From contig CAUJNA010003291.1 in the NCBI GenBank assembly GCA_963377175.1, positions 373,501-437,500 on the forward strand: a DNA stretch of 64,000 nt, in the 5' to 3' direction. Shown piece by piece: positions 19,612 to 30,707 of the stretch. Both the position numbers and the translations under genes were made by a program. The notes below the pieces were generated by a model. The model saw only the letters and a list, made by a program, of their open reading frames with translations. It was not told the DNA's origin and did not search any database. Every line of letters begins with the position of its first letter. Position 1 is the first letter of the stretch. The stretch is from Effrenium voratum. Taxonomy: Eukaryota; Sar; Dinophyceae; Suessiales; Symbiodiniaceae.

Positions 19612-19770
19612 CGTTACAGCAAGCAAGAAAAGTCCAGGCGCACGAGGCATCAGTCCATTCGCATCGCCCGCGACGCGATGCAGCGGGCTTTGCTGCGCCT
19701 GCCGCGGCGACGGAGGTTTTGGTCGCTGGCGGTGTGTGCGGCGTGGCCCGACGCTTTGATTTGCAGTCAG
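19612..19770 (+). CDS. Probable exon ending at an element's GT border
   Basis: Of two open + frames, RRTRHQSIRIARDAMQRALL then RLPRRRRFWSLAVCAAWPDA has the stronger third-position bias. It ends ATTTGCAGTCAG|GTGGCTGTGG, exactly at the left end of a family A element. After the element, CCAAG|TTGGCGCTTCATGGC continues the frame as LALHGFEG. No family recognised. Confidence 0.45.
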
Positions 19771-19985
19771 GTGGCTGTGGGTCAAAACCAATGGACCACC
19801 CATTTTAGTCTACTCCAACGTGCCTCTGGGTGCAGGTCCCTCTACAAATCGTTTGGCAGGGGACCATGTGGCTGTGGGCCAAAACGAATTGGATCCCATT
19901 TTGGTTGGTAGGTGAATTCACCACCCATGTTAGAACCTGTTTTAGTTGTTCACTGGGGGTACAGGATTTTGACCCATGGCCAAGT
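19771..19985 (+). mobile_element. Intron element, family A, with a nested second left end
   Basis: It starts GTGGCTGTGGGTCAAAACC and ends GGATTTTGACCCATGGCCAA G. Inside, at about 19,866, a second left end GTGGCTGTGGGCCAAAACG occurs, so one copy has inserted in or duplicated within another. Confidence 0.75.
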
Positions 19986-20605
19986 TGGCGCTTCATGGCT
20001 TTGAGGGGACTTTTTTTGGGGTGCTTGAAAGGGACACCAAGATGATGGGCACCATTTGTGGGTCCCCTAGAAAAACACAGCTCTGGGAACCATGTTCAAT
20101 TTGGTTGGTGGGCCAGTGCCGGTCCCTGTCAAGATTCGAACCCAAGATCTTATATTCATGTTCAAGCCGGCCCCACTTGATTTGTGTCTTCACAAATGCC
20201 GTCGCAGTTGGACACAAATCCAACCATGTCCGAGCGTCCAAAAAGAATCCCAAGCATCGACTCATCGACTCGACTCGCTTCACCGCGCATGGAACGAATC
20301 GCTAGGCCAGTTCCTGGGTGCCCAGCCTTGCGCCCCGCCGGGTTCTGAGCCGCTGCGTGGCCGCCAAAGCGGAGGCGGTTTCGGCGAAACTCTCCGAAAT
20401 CCAATTCCGCCCAGGTCAAGGATCCAGTTTTCTCCGTTTTGGTGCTGAAAACGGTACCCGCTGGGGCCAGTTTACAGTTAGTTTTTCTTTGGGGGTCAGC
20501 GAGCAAAAAAGAGGTGGAAGTGTCGGGAACCCTGATGCCAAGTCCGAAGTCCATCGGCTCGGCAACACACGGCTTGATCAGAGAATCACAATCCCGGCAC
20601 CAGTC

Positions 20606-20735
20606 AACCATGGGGCATAACCTATGGCTCCATTTTGGGGGTTTCGGTGCACCACCCATTTTAGAACCCATTTTAGTGGTTGGATTGGGATGTTCACTGG
20701 GGGTACGATTTGGATTTTGACGCACAGACACATGT
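20606..20735 (+). mobile_element. Intron element, family A
   Basis: CATTTTGGGGGTTTCGGTGC, CACCCATTTTAGAACCC, TGGTTGGATTGGGATGTTCA and CTGGGGGTACGATTTGG precede TTTTGACGCACAGACACATG. Confidence 0.75.
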
Positions 20736-20873
20736 TGAATCTGATCCCCCGGGTGGGGCAAAATATGGTTTAAACACCACCTTTACAAGGGAAGAATCAT
20801 CATAACCAGTGGTTTAAACATGTTTAAACCAATGGGTGGCCCCGCCCTACTGATCCCTTCATCCAAAAACCGA

Positions 20874-20965
20874 CGTCAGGTTTTCGCTTCGCATCGCCAT
20901 GGCCAGGCGAGCGATGGGGAGGTGCCCTCTGCAGAGGACGGCGCGCAGGATGTAGTGGGATTCAT
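20874..20965 (+). CDS. Probable exon, unidentified protein
   Basis: The frame HGQASDGEVPSAEDGAQDVV shows strong G/C third-position bias and acidic, disordered composition. Boundaries are approximate. Confidence 0.35.
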
Positions 20966-21140
20966 CACTTTTGGAGGGGAACACCCCCCCCACACTAATA
21001 CAGGGCTCCTTAAAAGATACATTTTGCAACCACTTGAAACATGTTGCTTTTTCAACAAAGTAAAGGGAAACCACCATTTACAAGGCAATGTTCAGGTGTA
21101 TAATGTAGGGATCCCTAAAAACGGTTCTCGGCGACCACAG

Positions 21141-21196
21141 AGTTGCTAAATGAGGCGAAACCAGAGGATGTGAGACGGCTTCTCCAACAAGAATGG
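21141..21196 (+). CDS. Probable exon, unidentified protein
   Basis: After acceptor GACCACAG|AG the frame reads LLNEAKPEDVRRLLQQEW, with a possible donor TGG|GTTTCT. The composition suggests a helix. It may belong with the terminal exon at 21,298. Confidence 0.4.
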
Positions 21197-21297
21197 GTTT
21201 CTCCGAATGTGACACTAGCCACGTTGTGGAAAGTGCCCAAAGGTCCAAGGATGGCGCATGACTCCCACAGATTCCACCGCACCGGGTCAGCCTTGAG

Positions 21298-21471
21298 GCT
21301 TCGGCCGAAGCCGCGTCAGCGCAGGTTGTGTTGCAGCAGCTGGAGGAGAGCGGCCTGTTCGAAGGGCAGGCCGGGGAAGTCGGCCGCGTGAAAACGAAGC
21401 AGAGGGTGCCAATTGCTTGGCTGGAAAAGGGGAGGCGGAGGAGTACCCATTTCAAGGCTGCTCCGGTGTGA
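21298..21471 (+). CDS. Terminal exon of an unidentified gene
   Basis: Acceptor CCTTGAG|GCT opens a 57-codon frame beginning ASAEAASAQVVLQQLEESGL. It continues FEGQAGEVGRVKTKQRVPIA and ends THFKAAPV with TGA at 21,469-21,471. The first half has very strong codon bias. The stop marks the 3' end of a gene about 1.2 kb upstream of the first sirtuin exon found. No family recognised. Confidence 0.55.
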   Translation, partial: ASAEAASAQVVLQQLEESGLFEGQAGEVGRVKTKQRVPIAWLEKGRRRSTHFKAAPV

Positions 21472-21545
21472 TTTTAATAATTTTTGAGACACCCCTTCGG
21501 CTTTTTCAAAGATCAAATCCGGGGCTTGAGCTGGAACATTTGCCG

Positions 21546-21665
21546 TGTTACTGATGGTCATTCCTTCTCCCTATGCGCCGCAAATCGGGCAGGAAGAGAT
21601 GCTGCTGAGACTTCGTATGTTGGCAGCACAGGGCGCCCTGGCAGAAGCCGGCCATGTTTTATTGG
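21546..21665 (+). CDS. Probable exon between the upstream gene and the sirtuin
   Basis: The frame PSPYAPQIGQEEMLLRLRML then AAQGALAEAGHV is coding-like. It could be an N-terminal exon of the sirtuin gene or belong to a separate small gene; neither can be settled from sequence alone. Confidence 0.4.
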
Positions 21666-21699
21666 CCGTGCTTTACTTCCATTTTCTGAAGAAGTTCTT

Positions 21700-21755
21700 T
21701 TTTATTTCCCCTGTTGGTTTTAAATGGAATCTATCACTACTAGAAAAATTCTTGA
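21700..21755 (+). mobile_element. Intron element core, family D
   Basis: TTTCCCCTGTTGGTTTTAAA then TGGAATCTATCACTACTAG matches the family D core. Confidence 0.7.
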
Positions 21756-22631
21756 GGGGCCTCCAGCCAGTCAAGGCTTAAAATAGGTGGACAGGGACCC
21801 CAAACTGGCCGTTTCATTCGGTTTTTCCCATGTCAACGTCTAAAAGGGCACACAAAAAAAAAAGCGCGTTTTGGCGGCCGGTATGTACTGTGCACCGTAA
21901 GTGAACCAAGGGACGTGCAAAACACGGCTGAGAGGGTGCACTGGCTGGACTGCCATGGTCGCAGAGCAAGAATATCGCGGGAAGTGCACTGCATTGCACG
22001 AGCGCGACGCATTGACAAGTCAAGGGAATAAGCTGCACCCCACAAGTGAGCCTTGCTTAAGGGTTCTTTTGGACACTTCTGCTTGTGCATTGTCGCTTCG
22101 GTTGGGTGCCGGATCGGTCCAAGTGGGACATGCGTCAGACACCCCAGAAATCCTGGAAAGACAGCCGCATCTTTTTCAGGCTTCACACCGTGGCAGAACG
22201 GCCCAATGAATATTCCGTGCAAAACGTTTGACACTAAACTGTGCTGACATGCCAAAGGGTGGAAGGGTCACAGGCGCTGCCACTGCCAAAGCAAGTGAGG
22301 TGTGCATCCATTGGATGCATTGCGAGCAAGTCGCCTGCAGGAGGACAGACGTGGGCAGGCGGGACCCAGTTTGGTCTTTTGCCTGGGGGCTTGTCGTTCA
22401 ACAGATCCCGCTGGATGGTGTTCGTAGGATGCGGTCGCTCGCAGTTGGCAGGAGGAGCCACGCGATGCTGTGTTGGAGTCATTCGACATCGAAGGACCAT
22501 TTCGATGGGCACTCGCGAACTTGACCCCTGACGCCTGACAGCACCACCAGTCCAACACGACACCCAAGCTTGGGCTGCCCAAAGAAAGCGCAGCTCGCCC
22601 TGCCGTTTGTGCTGGGGTAACTCCACCGGAG

Positions 22632-22710
22632 GAGTTGCCAAGTACATGCAAGCCAGCAAGTGCAAGAACGTGGTGGTAATGTGCGGGGCTGGCATCTCCA
22701 CATCCGCAGG
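22632..22710 (+). CDS. Sirtuin exon 1 found: NAD-binding GAGIS
   Basis: Acceptor CCGGAG|GAG; frame [20 protein letters not shown] then GISTSAG. The GAGIS loop binds NAD in all sirtuins. The exon ends TCCGCAGG|GCGGC (GC donor) in a phase that joins to G|ATC at 23,353. The true N-terminus lies upstream and was not found. Confidence 0.9.
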
Positions 22711-25700
22711 GCGGCACGGATGCGCTTGCATGGTGTGTTTGACGTCCGCGCCCATCTTTGCTTCAGCTCCACATGTGGGTGTGGGTCAAAATGAAACCAC
22801 CAGGGGACCACAGGTTTTGGTCCATGTTGCCACTTACCAGGGTTCCATCTTGGGTACCTATTTTTGACACACAGCCATGTGAGCATGAGCAGGGCCAGGC
22901 CAGAAAGGTGATTTTTGTTTTTTTTGATGCAACTAGTTCCCCCAGTAGTGCCCTTTTACCCTTTTTTCGGGGACGGATCCCCTACTAAAATAGACTACGG
23001 AACAAAGGGCACCCTTATTCTAACCTCTCTACTGGAGGACCTCGGCAACAGTTTCTTGGGATTTCGAGAGCCTTCCTTTTGCAATGGCTTCGGGCAGAGT
23101 AGGGTTTGTCCCAGATTAGGGGAACCTCAAATCGGTGCTTCCCTCTAATTTCGCTTCAAACTATGCCGCAAAAGGCGCCGGCGAAAAAAAGCCACATCCA
23201 TTTCTCGCTGGTGCAGTAGGGAATGAGGGAATGAACTTCAGGGCCCATGGGGATGGTTTATAGGGCTCATTCCCTCATTCCCTGCTGAGCACCGGCAAGA
23301 TGTTCGGTTTTGGGACATCGACGGACGCCGCCGCCAATTTCCCCGTGCCGAGGATCCCGGACTTCCGAACTCCGGGGAGCGGTTTGTACGAAGCTCGGCG
23401 GTTTGGCGTTTAGTCGAGCGATGAGAGGGTTGTGGGATCAGGGGGGGTGTTCCACTTCTCTTTGGTGCACTTTGCTTGGCTGTTAGGACTTTAACTTTTT
23501 GCCAGCTGATGGGTTTCTCACTAGACCACTAAAAGTAAAACTTTTAGCAGGGGAGCAGAAAGCAACCGAGTTCTGTGATGCAAAGGAATCTCCCCCCGTA
23601 TAGGGGGAGGTAGTCTAGGCCCCTTTTTGTTGGATCACAGAAGTGGGTTCCATTTCCCGAAGCCCTGAGCGACGAAATTTTGATAAAGTCGTTGGCGGCC
23701 AGAAATCTCTGCCTAAATGATGCCCGCCTGAGTCGTGGTGATGATTATCATCATCCCTGCTGGTGGTGTTGGAGATGCGTAGTGATGACGATCATCATGG
23801 TGCATCATCACATCGTCATCGTTATCGTCCTTGTGTTTTTTCATATACGTTTCAAGTGTCCCGTTAGACCGACCGAAATTCATACCACAAGGGTCTCAAA
23901 CACAAGGGGTCAAGGGGGATTCATAGGAGTTTCAACTGAAAGTGGGGGGATTTGATGGTTTTGATCAATCAGGGGTTTCAGGGTTGATTTGTCCTGGGCT
24001 TCGAATCATACGGCCAAGGACAACTTGCAGCGTTATAACCTCAGTCAGCCCGAGCTCATCTTCGACTTGGCTTTCTTTCAAAGCCAGCCAGGCACGAAGC
24101 GGTGGGTGGGTGGGTGGGCGGGCGGGCGGGTGGGTGGGTGGGTGTGTGTTTGTGTTTTGGTGTGTCTCTGTGAGTGTAATCTGTGTCTTTGTGTGTCTCT
24201 GTGCGTCTTTGTGTCTGTTTTCCTTTTGTCTCACTGTGTGGCTCTAAGCTGTGTGTGTGTGTGTGTGTGTGTGTGGGTCTCTGTGTGTCTCCGTGAGTCT
24301 CTCTGTGTCTCTGTGCGTCTCTGTGTGTCTTTGTATCTGCTTTTCTGTGTGTCTCTGTGTGTCTCTGTGTGGCTCTACGCAAAGCTCTGCAGCCAAGCCG
24401 CCTGCATTCAAAACCACCGGAGTTTTCAAGCATTATTTGTTTTTCGCGGGCACGGCCAGTCCCCGAGTTTTGACAACGCATAACTGCTGAGGGCCGGGCA
24501 AAGCAGAACTGCTTGAGCCAGGCCATGGACCCACTGCTTGATCCCTAAAATGGCTCGTCCTTTCGTTTTCCTTGACAGTCGCACAAGCATACTCTCAAAA
24601 ATCAGACGCCAATCCATACCAATCCAACTGGGAAACAGTCAAAGGGCTCGCGTCTCCGATTTGCGTCTCTCGGCAAAAGCGACGTCGGCCAGCCCCCTTC
24701 TACGAGCTTTGCAAAGAGCTTTGGCCTGGGACGTACCGGCCAACAAGGGCGCACTACTTCATCCGCCTGCCCCTCGGCTTGCACGCCTGTTATGGCTGAA
24801 GTCGCTGCTCCGAAAATGCCACAACGCGACCCTTGCCTAATGACTTGGTGGGCGATGTGCGAGTTCGGTGGTTGCAATGCAGTCGGGTCAAACCTTCTCG
24901 TGTGCTAGCAACGGCGATTCAAGCAATCCATGGTGCACCTGAGCTGCGGGAAGATGATTCGCTGCGCCAAGGCTGGAGGAGAAGGCGCGCGCTTGAAAGT
25001 TGCCGCCTTTCAAAGCTGCTGCGATTTTTGATCCTTTTTGCTGCTTCAGGGATTCGAAGCCGGAAGAATTGTTGCTGCCAGTTTGGACCTCACGTGATGT
25101 TTGCCGTGTTTTCTGGATTTTCTGAAGCTCGCTGAAATTCTGAAACAACAAAACGCATGCTGGCAACAGCGATTGTCGGCAGGGCGTGCTGCGACGATGC
25201 TACACGCAGAAGCTTGGCAACGCTTTGCGCAGCTTATTCGTGTAGGAATGTGAATTTGAATCGGGAATGCCCTCGAAAATGGTTGCTGGACCTGGCTCTC
25301 CGCGTCAAATTTCCAAGGCCAAGTCAAACCGGAGAACTTTCCTTTGCTTCGAAGAACGCCGCCGGAAATCGGCCGGCCGGAGAGTTTCATGAGACACCAG
25401 CGTCTTAAAATAGGAGACCCCAAACTGGGGTTGCATTCTTTGGTTCCTCTTGAAGGCCTGAACAAAAAGACCCACGGCCAGTAGTGAGTGGCAACCTTTC
25501 AAGGGTGACTCCAGGGGCCCTGATCTCGCCGCATCGAATGGCACCGGCCGAGGAATATCGCAGCACGGCAGCAGGGGCTGTTGTGTGGGTCTGGTCGGGG
25601 CCAGCAGGCCATGAACATCAATGGCTTTTTTATGCATATAGCTTTCGTTTTTATTTGACTCACAAGCAAAACCTGGAAAATTGGAGGAAATTGGAGGGTA

Positions 25701-28700
25701 GTCAGGGGCAATCCAGTGGGTGCGGCCACCTCTTTTTTTTTGCATGGTTCTGGGTGGACGATTTGAATCCCAGGTTTGATTGCAACTCTGGGATTTGTGG
25801 CTCCAGCTGGCACCTTGTCAAAAGCTCAGGACTCTTTGGAGCGGCAAGCTGGTCTCAGCCCGGAGACGCTCTGAGAGAAAATTTCCCTCAACTTCACGAA
25901 GATGGCGCTTGCTGTGTTGGTAGCTTCAGGTTTCTCAAAAATAACTCACATCCTGGCTGTCTCAGAAATGTGATTGGGGGGAGGGGCGCCACAACTGCAA
26001 TACCTTTTACCCCCAAAATGGTGGGTTTCCTTTCGGTTTCCCTTTAAAACACACCCAACAAATCCCAAAAAGGTGTACCGCCAAAAGCAAGACAGCCCCA
26101 TTTTCCATAAGCCCTAGGCTGTGTCGAAGGCATCTTCCTTCATGGTGTTGCAGCTGAGGAAAGTTGTTGCGGCGCATGGGAACATGGATGAAGCACATGT
26201 CCTCGACTCTGTGCCGGAGAGAAAGGTTGACATTGAGGATGTCAGGCGCCATCTTGGCGGCCTTGCGACAGACCGGCTTGTTGCGTCAGCCAGTCAAGGT
26301 GCATGTTCCTTGCAACCAGCTTCGCATGTCATGCACGCCGCGTGGATCGTTGACCGCTCCAGGCGAGCGATCTTCGCTGGGGAAGAAGGCTGGCAGGCCC
26401 TGCGGCAGGCCCACGGAGGTCTGGTGAGGCTTAGCTCAATTCGTAAGCGACGGAAAGCGCCGAGTCAGCATTGAACTTCACTGGGCTGGCGGCTTCAATC
26501 AAAACCTGAGTGGATGGAAATTCGGGGACTTCCTCCAGAATAGGCGCGGAGAAATCGGGCATTCAGGTTCTGGCTTGTTGATAGCACGTTCATCTCAGGA
26601 GGTTTGATTTCCCAGTCATTTCAGGCATCCAGCATTTGGATTTACGGTTTGTTGGGCATAGCCCATGCATCTCTTGGTTAAGAGTCAGCACCTCATTTGG
26701 ATTTTGGGGTGTAGCCTATTCATTCATCTCAGGTTTGATTTCCCGGTCGTTACCTCAGGAAGCCGAAGATTGTCATGTTTGGGGAAGACCTGCCCGACCG
26801 CTTCTGGGAACTGCAGCAGCAGGACTTGCAGGAGTGTGATCCTTGGCAGATGTCGCTCGGGAGGGTCTCACAATCCGGGGGAATTTCGCCCGTGCCGTCC
26901 TTCTTTTCCGCCCTCTGAAGACACCCTTTGCGTTCAGCCACGAAGAAACTGCATGAAACGGTTGGTTGCCGGCAAGGGGAACCCTGCCATGCAAGAGGTT
27001 TTGTCTCATGCTTCTGTTTTCCAGTGGAGATTGCCATGATTCGTCAGGACTTGATCTTTGTTCAAAGCCAGCAGCAAGACAATGTCGGTGTTTGGCTGCA
27101 TTTCTCGAAATGAAAGCAACCCCTGGGGTTATGAATCGAATCAGCACTGGCAACAGCATTCACGGCTGTGGCTTTTCAGTGTGTAGGTACATTTTTTTGT
27201 GGGGCAGTGGAGGGAGATTGCTTCAACTCGGGGGTTGTCTCAAAATGGGGCGGCGGGTGGTTCGCATGGCCAGTTTCTCCTGCATCGTCCTTGGCTTCAT
27301 GCAACCTTTTTCCGCTTTCCAGCAGCTATGGAAGCGGAAAGAGGGGCAACATCCTCCCAAAATGGTTGGTTTCCTTCAAGCTCCCCTTCAAATACCAACC
27401 AAAAGGGGGTCCACCATTTGGATGTAGCCCTTTTTTGAGGGTACTCCTTTTTTTTTTGGGGTCGTGCACGCCCAAAGAAAAGACATTTTGAGAAGCACGC
27501 GCCATGCCCACCAAGGATTTGTTGATCGTGATAGGAACCTCCTTGGTGGTCGAGCCCTTTGCCGGCTTGGTGGGGAAAGCGGCCCCGGACGCCCCACGGC
27601 TGCTCATCAACAGGCACGAACCACCGGGCTCCCGCATATTTTGTCTCGTTTTTCAGACCTCGACAGCAAGAGTTTCAGGTTCCTCTTTTTTTGGGGGGGT
27701 GAATTGGATTGGTGGATTTGGAAGTGCTGGCATTTGTAGGGCGCTGGGGTTCCCAGCCCTAACCACCAGAGAAGTGGCAGTTTTTTTGGAACCCACCAGA
27801 GCCAAGTTGAAGGGCCTACTGCTTAGAGCGGGGGCCCGCGAGATGATGGGCGGTGCTTTCGGATTTCGCTGGCCTCTTTATTTTGCCATGTTCAAAGTCA
27901 CCCCCTCAGTGGTGGGTTTAAGGGAAACAACCAATTCCATTTCCTGATTTTGACAACCCCCAGGAACCATCAAAATAATGACCCCAGAATGGTCTGCCCC
28001 CGAAAAATAGGCCCGGAGGCTACCTGCAAAACCAAGTTCCTCTTGGCCCCAAATTCTGACCGATCCAGGGAGCCGGCCGGGACCTGCGAGCAGCGCGTTT
28101 TCGGCTTCCGCTTCCAGTGCTTTGGACGGAGGGGGCTCTGGGGTGAATTTGGGCTCGGTGCGATGTGCAGTATGGGGGCTGAGGTACGTGCACCTGGCAC
28201 GTGAAGTCCACGTGGTCCAAATTTGGGGAACCCTTTTTGGCATGCCGAGGGCTTCAGCTGAACTAGGTCCCCCAGTAGTGCCCTTTTGCATTTTTTTGGG
28301 GTTCCCCTACTAAAATAGACTACAGAAGAAAGGGTACCCTTATTCTAACCTCTCTACTGGAGAACCAAGCTGTGTAAAAGTGGCCGTTCTTTTTTGGAGA
28401 ACTTCCTGAGATGTTCTCACAAGGTGTCCCCCTCGGATGGATTGCATTGCCAGGTTGCCAGAGGGTGACAACTGGCGGGACGTGTGGTTTGAAGGCTCGA
28501 GCGCGAAGTTTCCCTGAGCATGCGCTTGACGCGTCGACCAATGTCCAGACATGGGGCCGTGTTGTTTTTTTTGCTCGGGTAGATGTTGGGGCAATCTGAG
28601 ACAGACCCACATTGCAGTTGCTGAGGATGTTTGAGCAGAATCCTGAGTGGATGGAGTGGCTCCAACTTTTGAAGCCTACGGAGAGACTAGCGGGTAGTAC

Positions 28701-30524
28701 ACATTAAAGCGCAGACAGATCGATATGCGCATATAAACCTGGCAACGAGAGACGGAAAGCGAGAAAGCTCACACGACTAACTGACTCCATGACAGAGGTC
28801 CTGTTTTGACGGGGGCACCTCGGCGTGGACAGCCTTAGAGCCCACGCTACTGGACACCCTACGAGCTTACGGATAAACATGCTAGTCGCGGCAGCGCGAC
28901 TTTGGCGAGCAAGGCAATGAGAGACTTTCAATTTTTCGGAACGATCAGACCCAACACTTGGATGAGCTGCACTGTGCTAGAACCTGTCTCCGAAGACGTC
29001 ATTGAACAGGGAGTTGCAAGAGAACTCATGGTCCTTGAGTCATGTTGTTCTCCTTTACTTTCAGACAGTGCTTATTCTGGCCTGCAGAACTGGTCATACA
29101 CGGAAAGGATGTAGGGCAGCGCTCGGCTCTGCACCGAGCAGCGCGTGGCAAAAACAAAGGATTGAATAGCGCCTTCCAATTGAAAAAGCCACGAACGGAC
29201 CGTTGCGCTAGCACATAAAATCACGAACACAAGTCACGCACACAGGTCACTAGAACTGCTCCTTACTTTCCAACTCCAAGTCGCTGCTGTACGCTGGAAG
29301 CTTTGCCAAAATTTCGGTACAGAGTCAGTGGCATGCAAAGTCCTGAGCGCAAGAAGCCAGAAGTTTTTAACCAACACCCAGTTCCCAAGCCACGAGCCCC
29401 CAGTCAGCTGACACCAACTTAGTAGCACCACATGTTCATTTTTTTCACCTGCTAGCCGCACAAACACCAACACTTGGACATCAGCCGCGTGCTAAAGTTT
29501 CCACCTACTTTCACACTAAGTCATGAACGCATACTTGCACGCAAGCACGCACGCATGCACACACCCACACCCACACCTACACACCCACACCCACACACCC
29601 ACACCCCCGCAGCCGCACCACCCACCCATCCACACACACACACACACCCACGCACGCACTTAGCGCCGCCACGCCACGCACACGCGCACGTGCACGCGCA
29701 CGCTCACGCGCACGCGCGCACGCGCACACAGGCACGCGAACACACAGGCACGCACACACAGGCACACCGGCACTCTGGCGCACGAGCACCCCAGAGACTT
29801 CCATTTGAAAGGAATGTGTATATATATGTATATATCTATATATATATATTTTTTTCCCTGCTGGTTTTAAAGGGAATCTGCAAGTATTGGACGTATGTTT
29901 AGCTTTCCAGTGGGCTTACGCAAATGGAAGGAGACTACCTCTGTCAAAGGGCTGGGTTACAGGAACAGCTAACATACCACAAAAAGCAAAAGAGGTTCAA
30001 CAGTATAATTTCCTGTAACCCAAGCCTTTGAAACTATGAAGCCCCGATCATTTCCCACCTTTGGTGCTTTAGGGTTTGCTAATGACGCGGCATTTGGTTG
30101 CGGGAGGATTGAAAAGTAATTGGATGAATTTGGCCTCTTGAGGGCGATGTGTTTGTGGGTCAAAGCCAATGGGATCCCATTTTGGGGTTTTCGGTGCGCC
30201 ACCCATTTTTGTCTATTTTAGAGTGGTTGGATTGGGATGTTCACTGGGGGTACGATTTGGCTTTTGACCCATTGCCATGTGGGAATGGGTCAAAATCAAA
30301 CCACCAGGGGACCGCAAATTCTAGTCCATGTTTCCATTTACCAGGGTTCCATTTGCCCGGGTTCCATTTTGGGTACATATTTTTGACCCACAGCCATGTG
30401 TTTGTGTGGTTCTTGTCAGGCGGTTGTGACGAGGGTTGCCACGCGCTGGCCGCTGCCCTGGGCTGGGGCGAGGATTTGCAGCGCCTGGAGTCAGAGGTGT
30501 TTCCGGCCAGGGGTGCTTCTCAGG
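22632..30524 (+). CDS. Sir2-family NAD-dependent protein deacylase (sirtuin), about 12 exons
   Basis: Twelve short exons on the + strand can be joined in frame into roughly 268 codons, the size of a Sir2 catalytic core. In order they carry the Rossmann-fold motif [42 protein letters not shown], the active-site [22 protein letters not shown] with the adenine/NAD-binding GTSL, LLIN, and [15 protein letters not shown] at the C-terminus. This matches class I (SIRT2/Hst2-like) sirtuins, which remove acyl groups from lysines using NAD. Odd points: no cysteine lies between HGN and FGEDLP, where the zinc ribbon should be; all resolved internal donors are GC or GA; and the TQN-ID junction lacks four bases. 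No start Met or stop was identified, so the ends are partial. Introns carry elements of families A, B, C, F, I, J and R and two microsatellites. Confidence 0.92.
22774..22879 (+). mobile_element. Intron element, family B, in sirtuin intron 1
   Basis: GGGTGTGGGTCAAAATGAAA on the left, TTTTGACACACAGCCATGTG on the right, core CCACCAGGGGACCACAGG and ACCAGGGTTCCATCTTGGG. The ends are inverted repeats. Confidence 0.85.
22931..23042 (+). mobile_element. Intron element, family C, in sirtuin intron 1
   Basis: CTAGTTCCCCCAGTAGTGCC on the left and CCTCTCTACTGGAGGACCTC on the right are inverted ends. The middle has CCCCTACTAAAATAGACTAC and ACCCTTATTCTAACC. Confidence 0.9.
23208..23303 (+). mobile_element. 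Intron element, family F, in sirtuin intron 1
   Basis: CTCGCTGGTGCAGTAGGGAA with TGAGGGAATGA is answered by TCATTCCCTCATTCCCTGCT then GAGCACCGGCAAG. The arms are clear inverted repeats. Confidence 0.8.
23353..23389 (+). CDS. Sirtuin exon 2: [12 protein letters not shown]
   Basis: Acceptor GCCGAG|GATC. The 37-bp exon encodes the invariant IPDFR motif following the NAD-binding loop. The phase agrees on both sides if the donor is TTGTAC|GAAG (GA). Confidence 0.9.
23478..23556 (+). mobile_element. Intron element, family G, in sirtuin intron 2
   Basis: GGACTTTAACTTTTTGCCAG, ATGGGTTTCTCACTAGACCA and GTAAAACTTTTAGCAGGGGA match the 44,842 copy closely. Confidence 0.7.
23725..23832. repeat. ATC-rich imperfect microsatellite
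   Basis: GATGATTATCATCATCCCTG and GATGACGATCATCATGGTGC plus CATCATCACATCGTCATCG form a short ATC/GAT-rich patch. Confidence 0.6.
24019..24091 (+). CDS. Sirtuin exon 3: [20 protein letters not shown]
   Basis: Acceptor GGCCAAG|GAC joins in phase to exon 2, giving [11 protein letters not shown]. It ends CAGCCAG|GCACG, a GC donor. The segment corresponds to the Y-x-L-P-x-P-E-x-I-F helix region of class I sirtuins. Confidence 0.9.
24100..24380 (+). repeat. GGGT/GGGC tract followed by GTCTCTGTGT minisatellite
   Basis: It starts directly after exon 3 with about 45 bp of GGTGGGTG/GGGCGGGC units. About 230 bp of TGTGTCTCTGTGTGTCT-type repeats with a pure (GT)n core follow. Cys/Val/Ser open frames here are artefacts. 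Confidence 0.95.
24693..24768 (+). CDS. Sirtuin exon 4: [12 protein letters not shown] and AHYFIRL
   Basis: Acceptor CGGCCAG|CCC joins to exon 3 as [15 protein letters not shown]. It continues [13 protein letters not shown] and ends CGCCT|GCCCC (GC donor). It is typical of the sirtuin small-domain entry helix. Confidence 0.88.
25170..25211 (+). CDS. Sirtuin exon 5: GVLRRCYTQ
   Basis: Acceptor GCAACAG|CGA; frame [13 protein letters not shown] plus AA, then GC donor (GCTTGG). Y-T-Q-N is the catalytic segment that contacts NAD ribose and water. The start, and so the residues before GVL, is the least sure part. Confidence 0.8.
25655..25795 (+). mobile_element. Intron element, family R, diverged
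   Basis: CTCACAAGCAAAACCTGG on the left and CCCAGGTTTGATTGCAACTC on the right are inverted ends; the interior has GGGGCAATCCAGTGGGTGCG. It sits in the sirtuin intron before DSLE. Confidence 0.65.
25830..25864 (+). CDS. Sirtuin exon 6: [12 protein letters not shown]
   Basis: Acceptor AGCTCAG|GAC; frame [11 protein letters not shown] plus GA, then GA donor. It matches the IDSLER-AG segment after TQN. Joining to exon 5 leaves a gap of four bases (the C of AAC plus ATT), see findings. Confidence 0.85.
26010..26075 (+). mobile_element. Intron element fragment, family J, in a sirtuin intron
   Basis: CCCAAAATGGTGGGTTTCCT, TTCGGTTTCCCTTTAAAACA and CACCCAACAAATCCC share their pattern with 27,350-27,475 and 33,785-33,950. 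Confidence 0.5.
26159..26245 (+). CDS. Sirtuin exon 7: catalytic His (HGN), cysteines absent
   Basis: Acceptor GCTGAG|GAAA completes [20 protein letters not shown], followed by [11 protein letters not shown] and a GC donor after GTCAG. H of HGN is the general base. In SIRT2-like proteins a CxxC/CxxxxC follows; here HVLDS replaces it. Confidence 0.92.
26363..26425 (+). CDS. Sirtuin exon 8: [20 protein letters not shown]
   Basis: Acceptor GCTCCAG|GCG joins as [13 protein letters not shown]. It ends GGTCTGGT|GAGG (GA donor), giving GGLVKPK across the junction, the normal sirtuin wording. The second zinc cysteine pair would fall here and is absent. Confidence 0.92.
26759..26837 (+). CDS. Sirtuin exon 9: [20 protein letters not shown]
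   Basis: Acceptor ACCTCAG|GAAG. FGEDLP-x-RF is diagnostic for class I sirtuins. It ends GAGTGT|GATCC (GA donor) so that ECD joins LLIVIGTSL. Confidence 0.95.
27350..27475 (+). mobile_element. Intron element, family J, in a sirtuin intron
   Basis: CCCAAAATGGTTGGTTTCCT, CCAACCAAAAGGGGGTCCAC and TTTTTTGAGGGTACTCC resemble 33,785-33,950. It lies about 40 bp before the GTSL exon. Confidence 0.55.
27516..27617 (+). CDS. Sirtuin exon 10: [20 protein letters not shown]
   Basis: Acceptor CACCAAG|GATTTG. It contains the GTSL motif (Ser contacts NAD), then [13 protein letters not shown]. The donor is either AACAG|GCAC (GC) or CAC|GAACC (GA). Confidence 0.95.
27887..27988 (+). mobile_element. Intron element, family I
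   Basis: CATGTTCAAAGTCACCCCCT on the left, TCAAAATAATGACCCC on the right, with AGTGGTGGGTTTAAGGGAAA inside; same as 35,078. Confidence 0.8.
28091..28116 (+). CDS. Sirtuin exon 11 (tentative): QRVFGFRF
   Basis: Between LLIN and CDEG a sirtuin should have a short segment with G-x-x-F. QRVFGFRF after acceptor CTGCGAG|CAG fits and is phase-compatible with a GA donor upstream. The right boundary is a guess. Confidence 0.5.
28263..28368 (+). mobile_element. Intron element, family C, in a sirtuin intron
   Basis: CTAGGTCCCCCAGTAGTGCC on the left and CTCTCTACTGGAGAACCAAG on the right; inside CCCCTACTAAAATAGACTAC and AGAAGAAAGGGTACCCTTAT. Confidence 0.92.
29525..29790. repeat. (CACACCCA)n and GCACGCACAC minisatellite
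   Basis: About 250 bp of CACACCCACACC then CGCACGCGCACG and CACACAGGCACGC words in the intron before the last sirtuin exon. Pro/His/Thr open frames are artefacts. Confidence 0.95.
29799..29930 (+). mobile_element. Intron element, family D, with internal (TA)n
   Basis: CTTCCATTTGAAAGG on the left and CAAATGGAAGG on the right are inverted ends; core TTTTCCCTGCTGGTTTTAAA then GGGAATCTGCAAGTATTGG. An ATATAT tract of about 30 bp lies inside. Confidence 0.75.
30146..30280 (+). mobile_element. Intron element, family A, joined head-to-tail with a B element
   Basis: GTGTTTGTGGGTCAAAGCCA to TTTTGACCCATTGCCATGTG, with CACCCATTTTTGTCTATTTT and GGATTGGGATGTTCACTGGG inside. A family B element begins at its right end. 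Confidence 0.85.
30281..30401 (+). mobile_element. Intron element, family B, immediately before the last sirtuin exon
   Basis: GGGAATGGGTCAAAATCAAA to TTTTTGACCCACAGCCATGT. Inside, CCGGGTTCCATTT repeats ACCAGGGTTCCATTT in tandem. It ends about 18 bp before the exon acceptor. Confidence 0.85.
30420..30524 (+). CDS. Sirtuin exon 12: [20 protein letters not shown]
   Basis: Acceptor CTTGTCAG|GCG. It encodes the typical C-terminal CDEG-x-x-x-LA-x-LGW-x-x-x-L signature, then [12 protein letters not shown]. The probable donor is CAGG|GTGTGGGTC, the left end of another element, so the protein likely has a further short exon. Confidence 0.92.
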
Positions 30525-30707
30525 GTGTGGGTCAAAAATCGGCACCCTCCCGCCACTCAACATGGAACCTGACAGAGGCTCCCTTTAAAAGGACAGTCAG
30601 CTTCCATGTTAAGTAGTGGGAGGGGACCCAAAATGGGTTGCCTGGTAAATGGAAAGGCCCTTCAAACCAGTCCCTTTCCTGTTTCATTTTTGACCCATAC
30701 CCCCCTG
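30525..30707 (+). mobile_element. Composite A/B-type intron element
   Basis: GGTGTGGGTCAAAAATCGG on the left and CATTTTTGACCCATACCCCC on the right are inverted ends. Inside, CCCAAAATGGGTTGCCTGGT then AAATGGAAAGG is a reversed B-like core. Confidence 0.65.

Follow-up and report, generated by a model that had tools for sequence, protein, structure and literature searches.

A SIRT2-like sirtuin of Effrenium voratum in which the cysteines of the structural zinc site are lost

The window analysed here, a stretch of 64,000 nucleotides from the genome of Effrenium voratum, a member of the Symbiodiniaceae, carries a gene for a SIRT2-like sirtuin in which the four cysteines that hold the structural zinc are lost. 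From the catalytic HG to the FGE motif, the deposited E. voratum protein P0001 reads HGNMDEAHVLDSVPERKVDIEDVRRAIFAGEEGWQALRQAHGGLVKPKIVMFGE: 54 residues with no cysteine among them, where a canonical zinc-binding sirtuin has two C-x-x-C pairs. A sequence-only reading of the window had proposed a sirtuin without zinc-ribbon cysteines; the loss is confirmed as real and is common to 118 of the 120 best homologues. We consider it probable that this is an intact class Ib sirtuin, one of a large algal group, which has given up its Zn(Cys)4 site and which, held together by a hydrophobic core, would act as a deacylase dependent on nicotinamide adenine dinucleotide (NAD). The gene and the exons encoding the segment are as follows.

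19678..30616, + strand: SIRT2-like gene of 22 exons; 21 exons give P0001 residues 1-374, exon 22 was added in this analysis; Pfam PF02146 on P0001
26159..26245, + strand: exon 16, with the catalytic His (AHGN) and the site of the first knuckle, where HVLDS replaces C-x-x-C (splice, alignment)
26363..26425, + strand: exon 17, predicted replacement helix GEEGWQALRQAHGG with Trp274 at the expected site of the second C-x-x-C (splice, alignment, predicted structure)
26759..26837, + strand: exon 18, KPKIVMFGEDLP strand, presumably substrate-binding by analogy with SIRT2 (P0001 splice)

Spliced together, AHGNMDEAHVLDSVPERKVDIEDVRR, AIFAGEEGWQALRQAHGGLV and KPKIVMFGEDLP (26,159-26,245, 26,363-26,425 and 26,759-26,837) reproduce P0001 exactly. 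The exons quoted in the earlier reading are real, except that the end of the first was wrong: it continues in frame across a 117-base GC-AG intron (26,246-26,362), which is coding-like and contains one Cys codon. The placing of HVLDS where HC-x-x-C is usual was correct, the motif lying in exon 16 and aligning with the first knuckle. Had a Cys-rich exon been overlooked, the loss would be an artefact of the gene model, and the deposited P0001 does appear to lack one exon, at its C-terminus. However, the two introns within the segment, scanned for C-x(2-4)-C, contain only one chance match, CDRPAC, a C-x(4)-C present in one frame with no second pair, and transcriptome-named relatives have Cys-poor segments similar in length to that of P0001. 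The hidden exon with two C-x-x-C pairs that the sequence-only reading had envisaged is unsupported, and we regard the likelihood of such an artefact as negligible. Since eight cysteines lie outside the segment, this residue has not been generally purged from P0001.

The Sir2 family profile PF02146, also precomputed on P0001, scored 110.7 bits against a cut-off of 24 and matched over positions 1-180 of 180, with a query that held one false exon. The catalytic set of P0001 is complete (GAGxS, PDFR, QNID, the catalytic His, FGE and GTS), and Q221, N222, D224, H241, G293 and E294 are invariant over 82 aligned rows. Papers are cited below by PubMed Central (PMC) number. Class Ib sirtuins (SIRT2/SIRT3-like) are marked by a PFA sub-motif and an Ala preceding HG (PMC3191509), and P0001 has VEPFAG and AAHG. 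Among the 50 fold matches listed, SIRT2 and SIRT3 come out on top, with one Leishmania SIR2rp1 in the first rows; ThsA- or FAM118-like folds are not among the 50, an absence that does not amount to exclusion. The fragmentary look of the locus, with 22 exons including two micro-exons, might suggest a decaying gene or a pseudo-enzyme. Yet 20 of 20 junctions are in frame to the deposited protein, its motifs are complete and other members of the group conserve the segment, making decay, which the earlier reading had also dismissed, very improbable.

Three protein searches, from which the best 120 of 2594, 5837 and 6229 matches were taken, yielded 258 distinct proteins, and the counts given here apply to these rather than to the whole family. 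Classes were assigned by regular expression: a zinc-type segment has C-x-x-C near its start and a later C-x(1-12)-C, a zinc-less one has neither, and the others are intermediate. By this measure 182 proteins have neither knuckle, 43 have both and 32 are intermediate, one (P0239) being without a recognisable segment. Of the best 120 of 2594, those nearest the window protein, 118 belong to the zinc-less class and two are intermediate, namely P0069 (C-x-C) and P0105 (an insertion resembling a retained intron). Twenty of these 120 carry transcriptome names (MMETSP Transcript, TRINITY or TRDRNA2); all are zinc-less and read through the segment without the tetrad. The suspicion that other protists have similar forms was well founded: zinc-less proteins are named from Effrenium, Durusdinium, Symbiodinium, Prorocentrum, Polarella, Chloropicon primus and Prymnesium parvum, and there are MMETSP rows with names beginning Hemis, Scyph and Lot, a minority of rows carrying taxon names at all. 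We read the Hemis rows as Hemiselmis. Named zinc-type proteins include those of Chlorella, Micractinium, Myrmecia, Trebouxia, Symbiochloris and Parachlorella; P0197, labelled Tetstr, is presumably from Tetraselmis. Several zinc-less rows are annotated plainly as "sirtuin 2" at source. One scan of viral contigs with P0093 returned four pattern matches and no relative, a weak result, the patterns having come from little-conserved peptides.

An alignment of 83 rows covering both forms locates the change. The first strand beyond the catalytic His aligns in zinc-less and zinc-type proteins, as does the helix that comes next; in the zinc-less form, V/C-I-D/x-T/S takes the place of the first knuckle C-x-x-C, and GEEGWxxLxxxxGG that of the second knuckle with the residues leading up to it. 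Position 274 is occupied by Trp in 157 of the 182 zinc-less rows, in none of the 43 of zinc type and in 3 of the 32 intermediate ones. This position-specific count is preferred because some zinc-type rows have an earlier Trp (QEW): Trp anywhere in the segment gives 160 of 182 zinc-less against 8 of 43 zinc-type rows in the 258 listed, and 147 of 165 against 0 of 29 in a smaller set. For structure modelling, alignments were chosen by class, A1 with 82 zinc-less and A2 with 38 zinc-type rows, the invariant tetrad cysteines of A2 being a product of that selection. AlphaFold2 places a helix at the site of the second knuckle of the window protein, with a predicted local distance difference test (pLDDT) score of about 96-98 across the segment, and no helix there in the one zinc-type control modelled. 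The second C-x-x-C knuckle is thus predicted to be replaced by a conserved Trp-bearing helix of 11 residues. What the earlier reading suggested might be a compact loop is, more accurately, a short helix, as predicted, that carries the conserved Trp. Thirteen zinc-less rows (P0087, P0089, P0113 and ten more) have Cys instead at 274, and 12 of them also have Cys249; the exception is P0111, a mis-anchored row that reads ATC. In these proteins Cys249 and Cys274 may form a disulfide that substitutes for the zinc site.

Could zinc still be bound, for example by His248, acidic residues or His281? Of 82 aligned rows, 61 have His248 and 48 have Asp251, a separate group among the matches retains some Cys together with a GH motif, and coordination by two to four Cys has been mentioned (PMC3484402). 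On the other hand, no four candidate ligands are conserved together: only 22 of 82 rows have His281, and 19 of 82 have T or S at position 248. Cys is absent from the segment in 93 of the 182 zinc-less rows, and a helix is predicted where the second knuckle would be. We think such a site improbable in the window protein. As to the intermediate class itself, many of its 32 rows share the pattern ARCLSGH..C..DDC and, as a group, may bind zinc through other ligands; P0149, P0157, P0174 and others alike combine an altered first knuckle (e.g. ARCLSGH) with a retained second Cys cluster, and may have a Cys/His zinc site.

How might a sirtuin work without its zinc? The Rossmann and catalytic motifs are retained, the first knuckle has turned into HVxDS/T, or keeps one Cys, and the second into the predicted 11-residue helix GEEGWxxLxxxxGG with its near-invariant Trp. 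A hydrophobic core (positions 249, 250, 258, 263, 267, Trp274 and Leu277) would then stabilise the small lobe in place of zinc, and lysine deacylation with NAD would follow the usual route. Zinc chelators, nitric oxide (NO) and oxidants acting at the zinc site would not be expected to inactivate such an enzyme, as it has no zinc-thiolate. Loss of zinc could also mean a different activity, since canonical sirtuins are stated to need the zinc module for deacetylation (PMC12700824) and PfSir2A is reported to depend on zinc as an essential component (PMC3484402). A zinc-less SIRT2-like protein might hydrolyse NAD, transfer ADP-ribose or read acyl-lysine, as the zinc lobe contributes to peptide binding. 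We find this unlikely: FGE and the remaining catalytic motifs are retained, the closest solved folds are those of SIRT2, and SIRT3 and SIRT5 with the tetrad Cys changed to Ala are reported still to deacylate in vitro (PMC8652059).

The two reports of a zinc requirement nevertheless weigh against our interpretation, and so do several features of the data. P0001 is a gene model rather than an E. voratum transcript, and the packing of Trp274 is inferred. Trp274 is missing from 25 of the 182 zinc-less rows, and 89 of them retain one to three Cys in the segment (none 93, one 65, two 23, three 1, Prymnesium P0143 being classed as zinc-less despite its three). Segment length is an imperfect guide to class: most zinc-less segments have 52 or 54 residues, and among the 43 of zinc type 17 have 49 residues and 11 have 53. 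Judged by mean conservation, the segment is constrained, though below the domain average (2.76 bits; the Sir2 domain has 3.18 and the N-terminal region 1.69). Finally, in a tree of 83 hand-picked proteins out of 222, built with the segment columns left out, the zinc-less label changes five times when the tree is free, and the zinc-less proteins form one side of a branch in 0% of 200 bootstrap trees. The starred branches alone, by contrast, require just one change, and a tree constrained to one zinc-less clade is not rejected (P value of the approximately unbiased test, p-AU, 0.545; 2.40 log units higher). The shared helix with its Trp would favour a single origin, which is possible on this evidence. 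On whether the zinc site was gained or lost, this sequence tree is silent.

The same assembly (1.16 Gb in 3699 contigs, of which C3109 carries the window at 373,501-437,500) contains other sirtuins. Zinc-less SIRT2-like loci are the window gene, one on contig C3601 (a single open frame, equal to P0021) and one on C3557, and zinc-type sirtuins occur in a cluster on C1110 (CDDC...CSC in locus L004), on C3316 (CEGC...CPKC) and on C538 (CETC...CDC). The same organism thus retains zinc-type sirtuins, and the swap is a feature of this paralogue group. The C1110 cluster (L004-L007) comprises at least four zinc-type copies in about 40 kb. Two further loci, L002 (contig C1) and L003 (C3360), are single-frame, bacterial-looking sirtuins; C1, 4.93 Mb long, may be a bacterial chromosome within the assembly.

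The architecture of the locus is shown by its remaining features.

19678..20374, + strand: exons 1-2, encoding an extended N-terminus (roughly P0001 residues 1-48) that may be a targeting peptide; model confidence low to residue 36
22632..22710, + strand: exon 8, NAD-binding GAGIST motif (P0001 splice)
23353..23389, + strand: exon 9, PDFR motif (P0001 splice)
24972..24984, + strand: exon 12, micro-exon of 13 bases (L-EEK) (junction solving)
25553..25559, + strand: exon 14, micro-exon of 7 bases, Asn-Ile of the catalytic QNID (junction solving)
27516..27613, + strand: exon 19, IGTSLVVEPFAG and LLIN motifs (P0001 splice)
30420..30616, + strand: exon 22, conserved C-terminal GCDEGCHALAAALGW part, absent from deposited P0001 (similar part in relatives, e.g. 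P0002)

P0001 (380 aa) was the closest homologue of our first spliced reading in the protein search (best 120 of 2594) and was located in the window by exact-match blocks and two very short exons. Each of the 20 junctions among its 21 exons has one exact-translation solution, in frame; 11 introns are GC-AG, eight GA-AG and one GT-AG. In Symbiodiniaceae, GC/GA donors are reported at 25-74% of introns (PMC11453091). A candidate exon, EFESGMPSK, between CYTQ and VVAAHG was rejected, as P0001 reads NIDSLERQAGLSPE there, encoded by a micro-exon and 25,830-25,864; the rejected exon had been part of the query behind the profile score and the list of 2594 matches. The deposited model appears to run through the GC donor at 28,494 (GC-AG intron 28494-30420) and so to lose its C-terminal exon; adding 30,420-30,616 restores the ...CDEGCHALAAALGW... 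end, as in relatives. Gene models of other dinoflagellates may have suffered the same loss. The N-terminal extension, starting MQRALLRLPRRRRFWSLAVCAAW, resembles a targeting peptide as judged from N-termini; that of P0006 is more strongly hydrophobic, and P0021 starts near the Sir2 domain. From these N-termini, a plastid or mitochondrial location of the window sirtuin is possible.

Zinc-less Sir2 proteins are already known elsewhere, and the SIRT2-like algal form is a variant on them. The noncanonical SIR2_2, FAM118 and ThsA proteins likewise have no zinc-binding module, but in them the whole module is absent and they are described as closer to ThsA than to SIRT1 (PMC12700824); in the window protein, the strands and first helix of the module remain in the model and the metal site alone is replaced. 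In acetic acid bacteria, too, there are SIR2 proteins that combine a Sir2 domain and NAD site with no predicted zinc site; they are bacterial and form, according to their authors, a separate new class (PMC11820453), which we set apart here by description only. Human SIRT2, itself of class Ib, holds zinc on four Cys, whereas the window protein has none of these and a predicted Trp-bearing helix for a second knuckle. The SIRT2-like proteins of Chlorella, Micractinium and Trebouxia and P0197 are relatives of the zinc type, with C-x-x-C pairs, no Trp274 and, in the one control modelled, no helix. Closer at hand, the CobB-like bacterial sirtuin L003 similarly lacks the tetrad, with one Cys in its segment. 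It differs in being another sirtuin type, apparently bacterial (Bacteroidetes CobB-like), and would represent an independent case. In the sirtuin literature searched, from which subscription papers were mostly absent, we found no description of a zinc-less SIRT2-like algal group in the portions available, and the word "zinc" is not mentioned in the main text of PMC5499015, PMC9486876 or PMC3319573.

According to one survey, most dinoflagellates have more sirtuins than do most other eukaryotes (PMC4751559). The zinc site is the point at which NO and oxidants switch off several sirtuins (PMC12700824, PMC8652059), S-nitrosation at the tetrad being reported as inhibitory to SIRT1, SIRT2 and SIRT6 (PMC8652059). 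One could imagine, although we hold this to be somewhat less than an even bet, that one ancient event swapped the zinc-thiolate site of a SIRT2-type protein for a Trp-bearing helix, and that zinc-independent deacylases insensitive to oxidation and NO then became widespread in dinoflagellates, haptophytes, cryptophytes and certain green algae; zinc would in that case be a replaceable brace and redox switch, not a requirement of deacetylation. The finding bears on annotation, as several zinc-less proteins carry plain "sirtuin 2" labels. A large natural group that lacks the zinc while the rest of SIRT2 is kept at 47% identity offers a direct test of the need for zinc and of redox switching in sirtuins.
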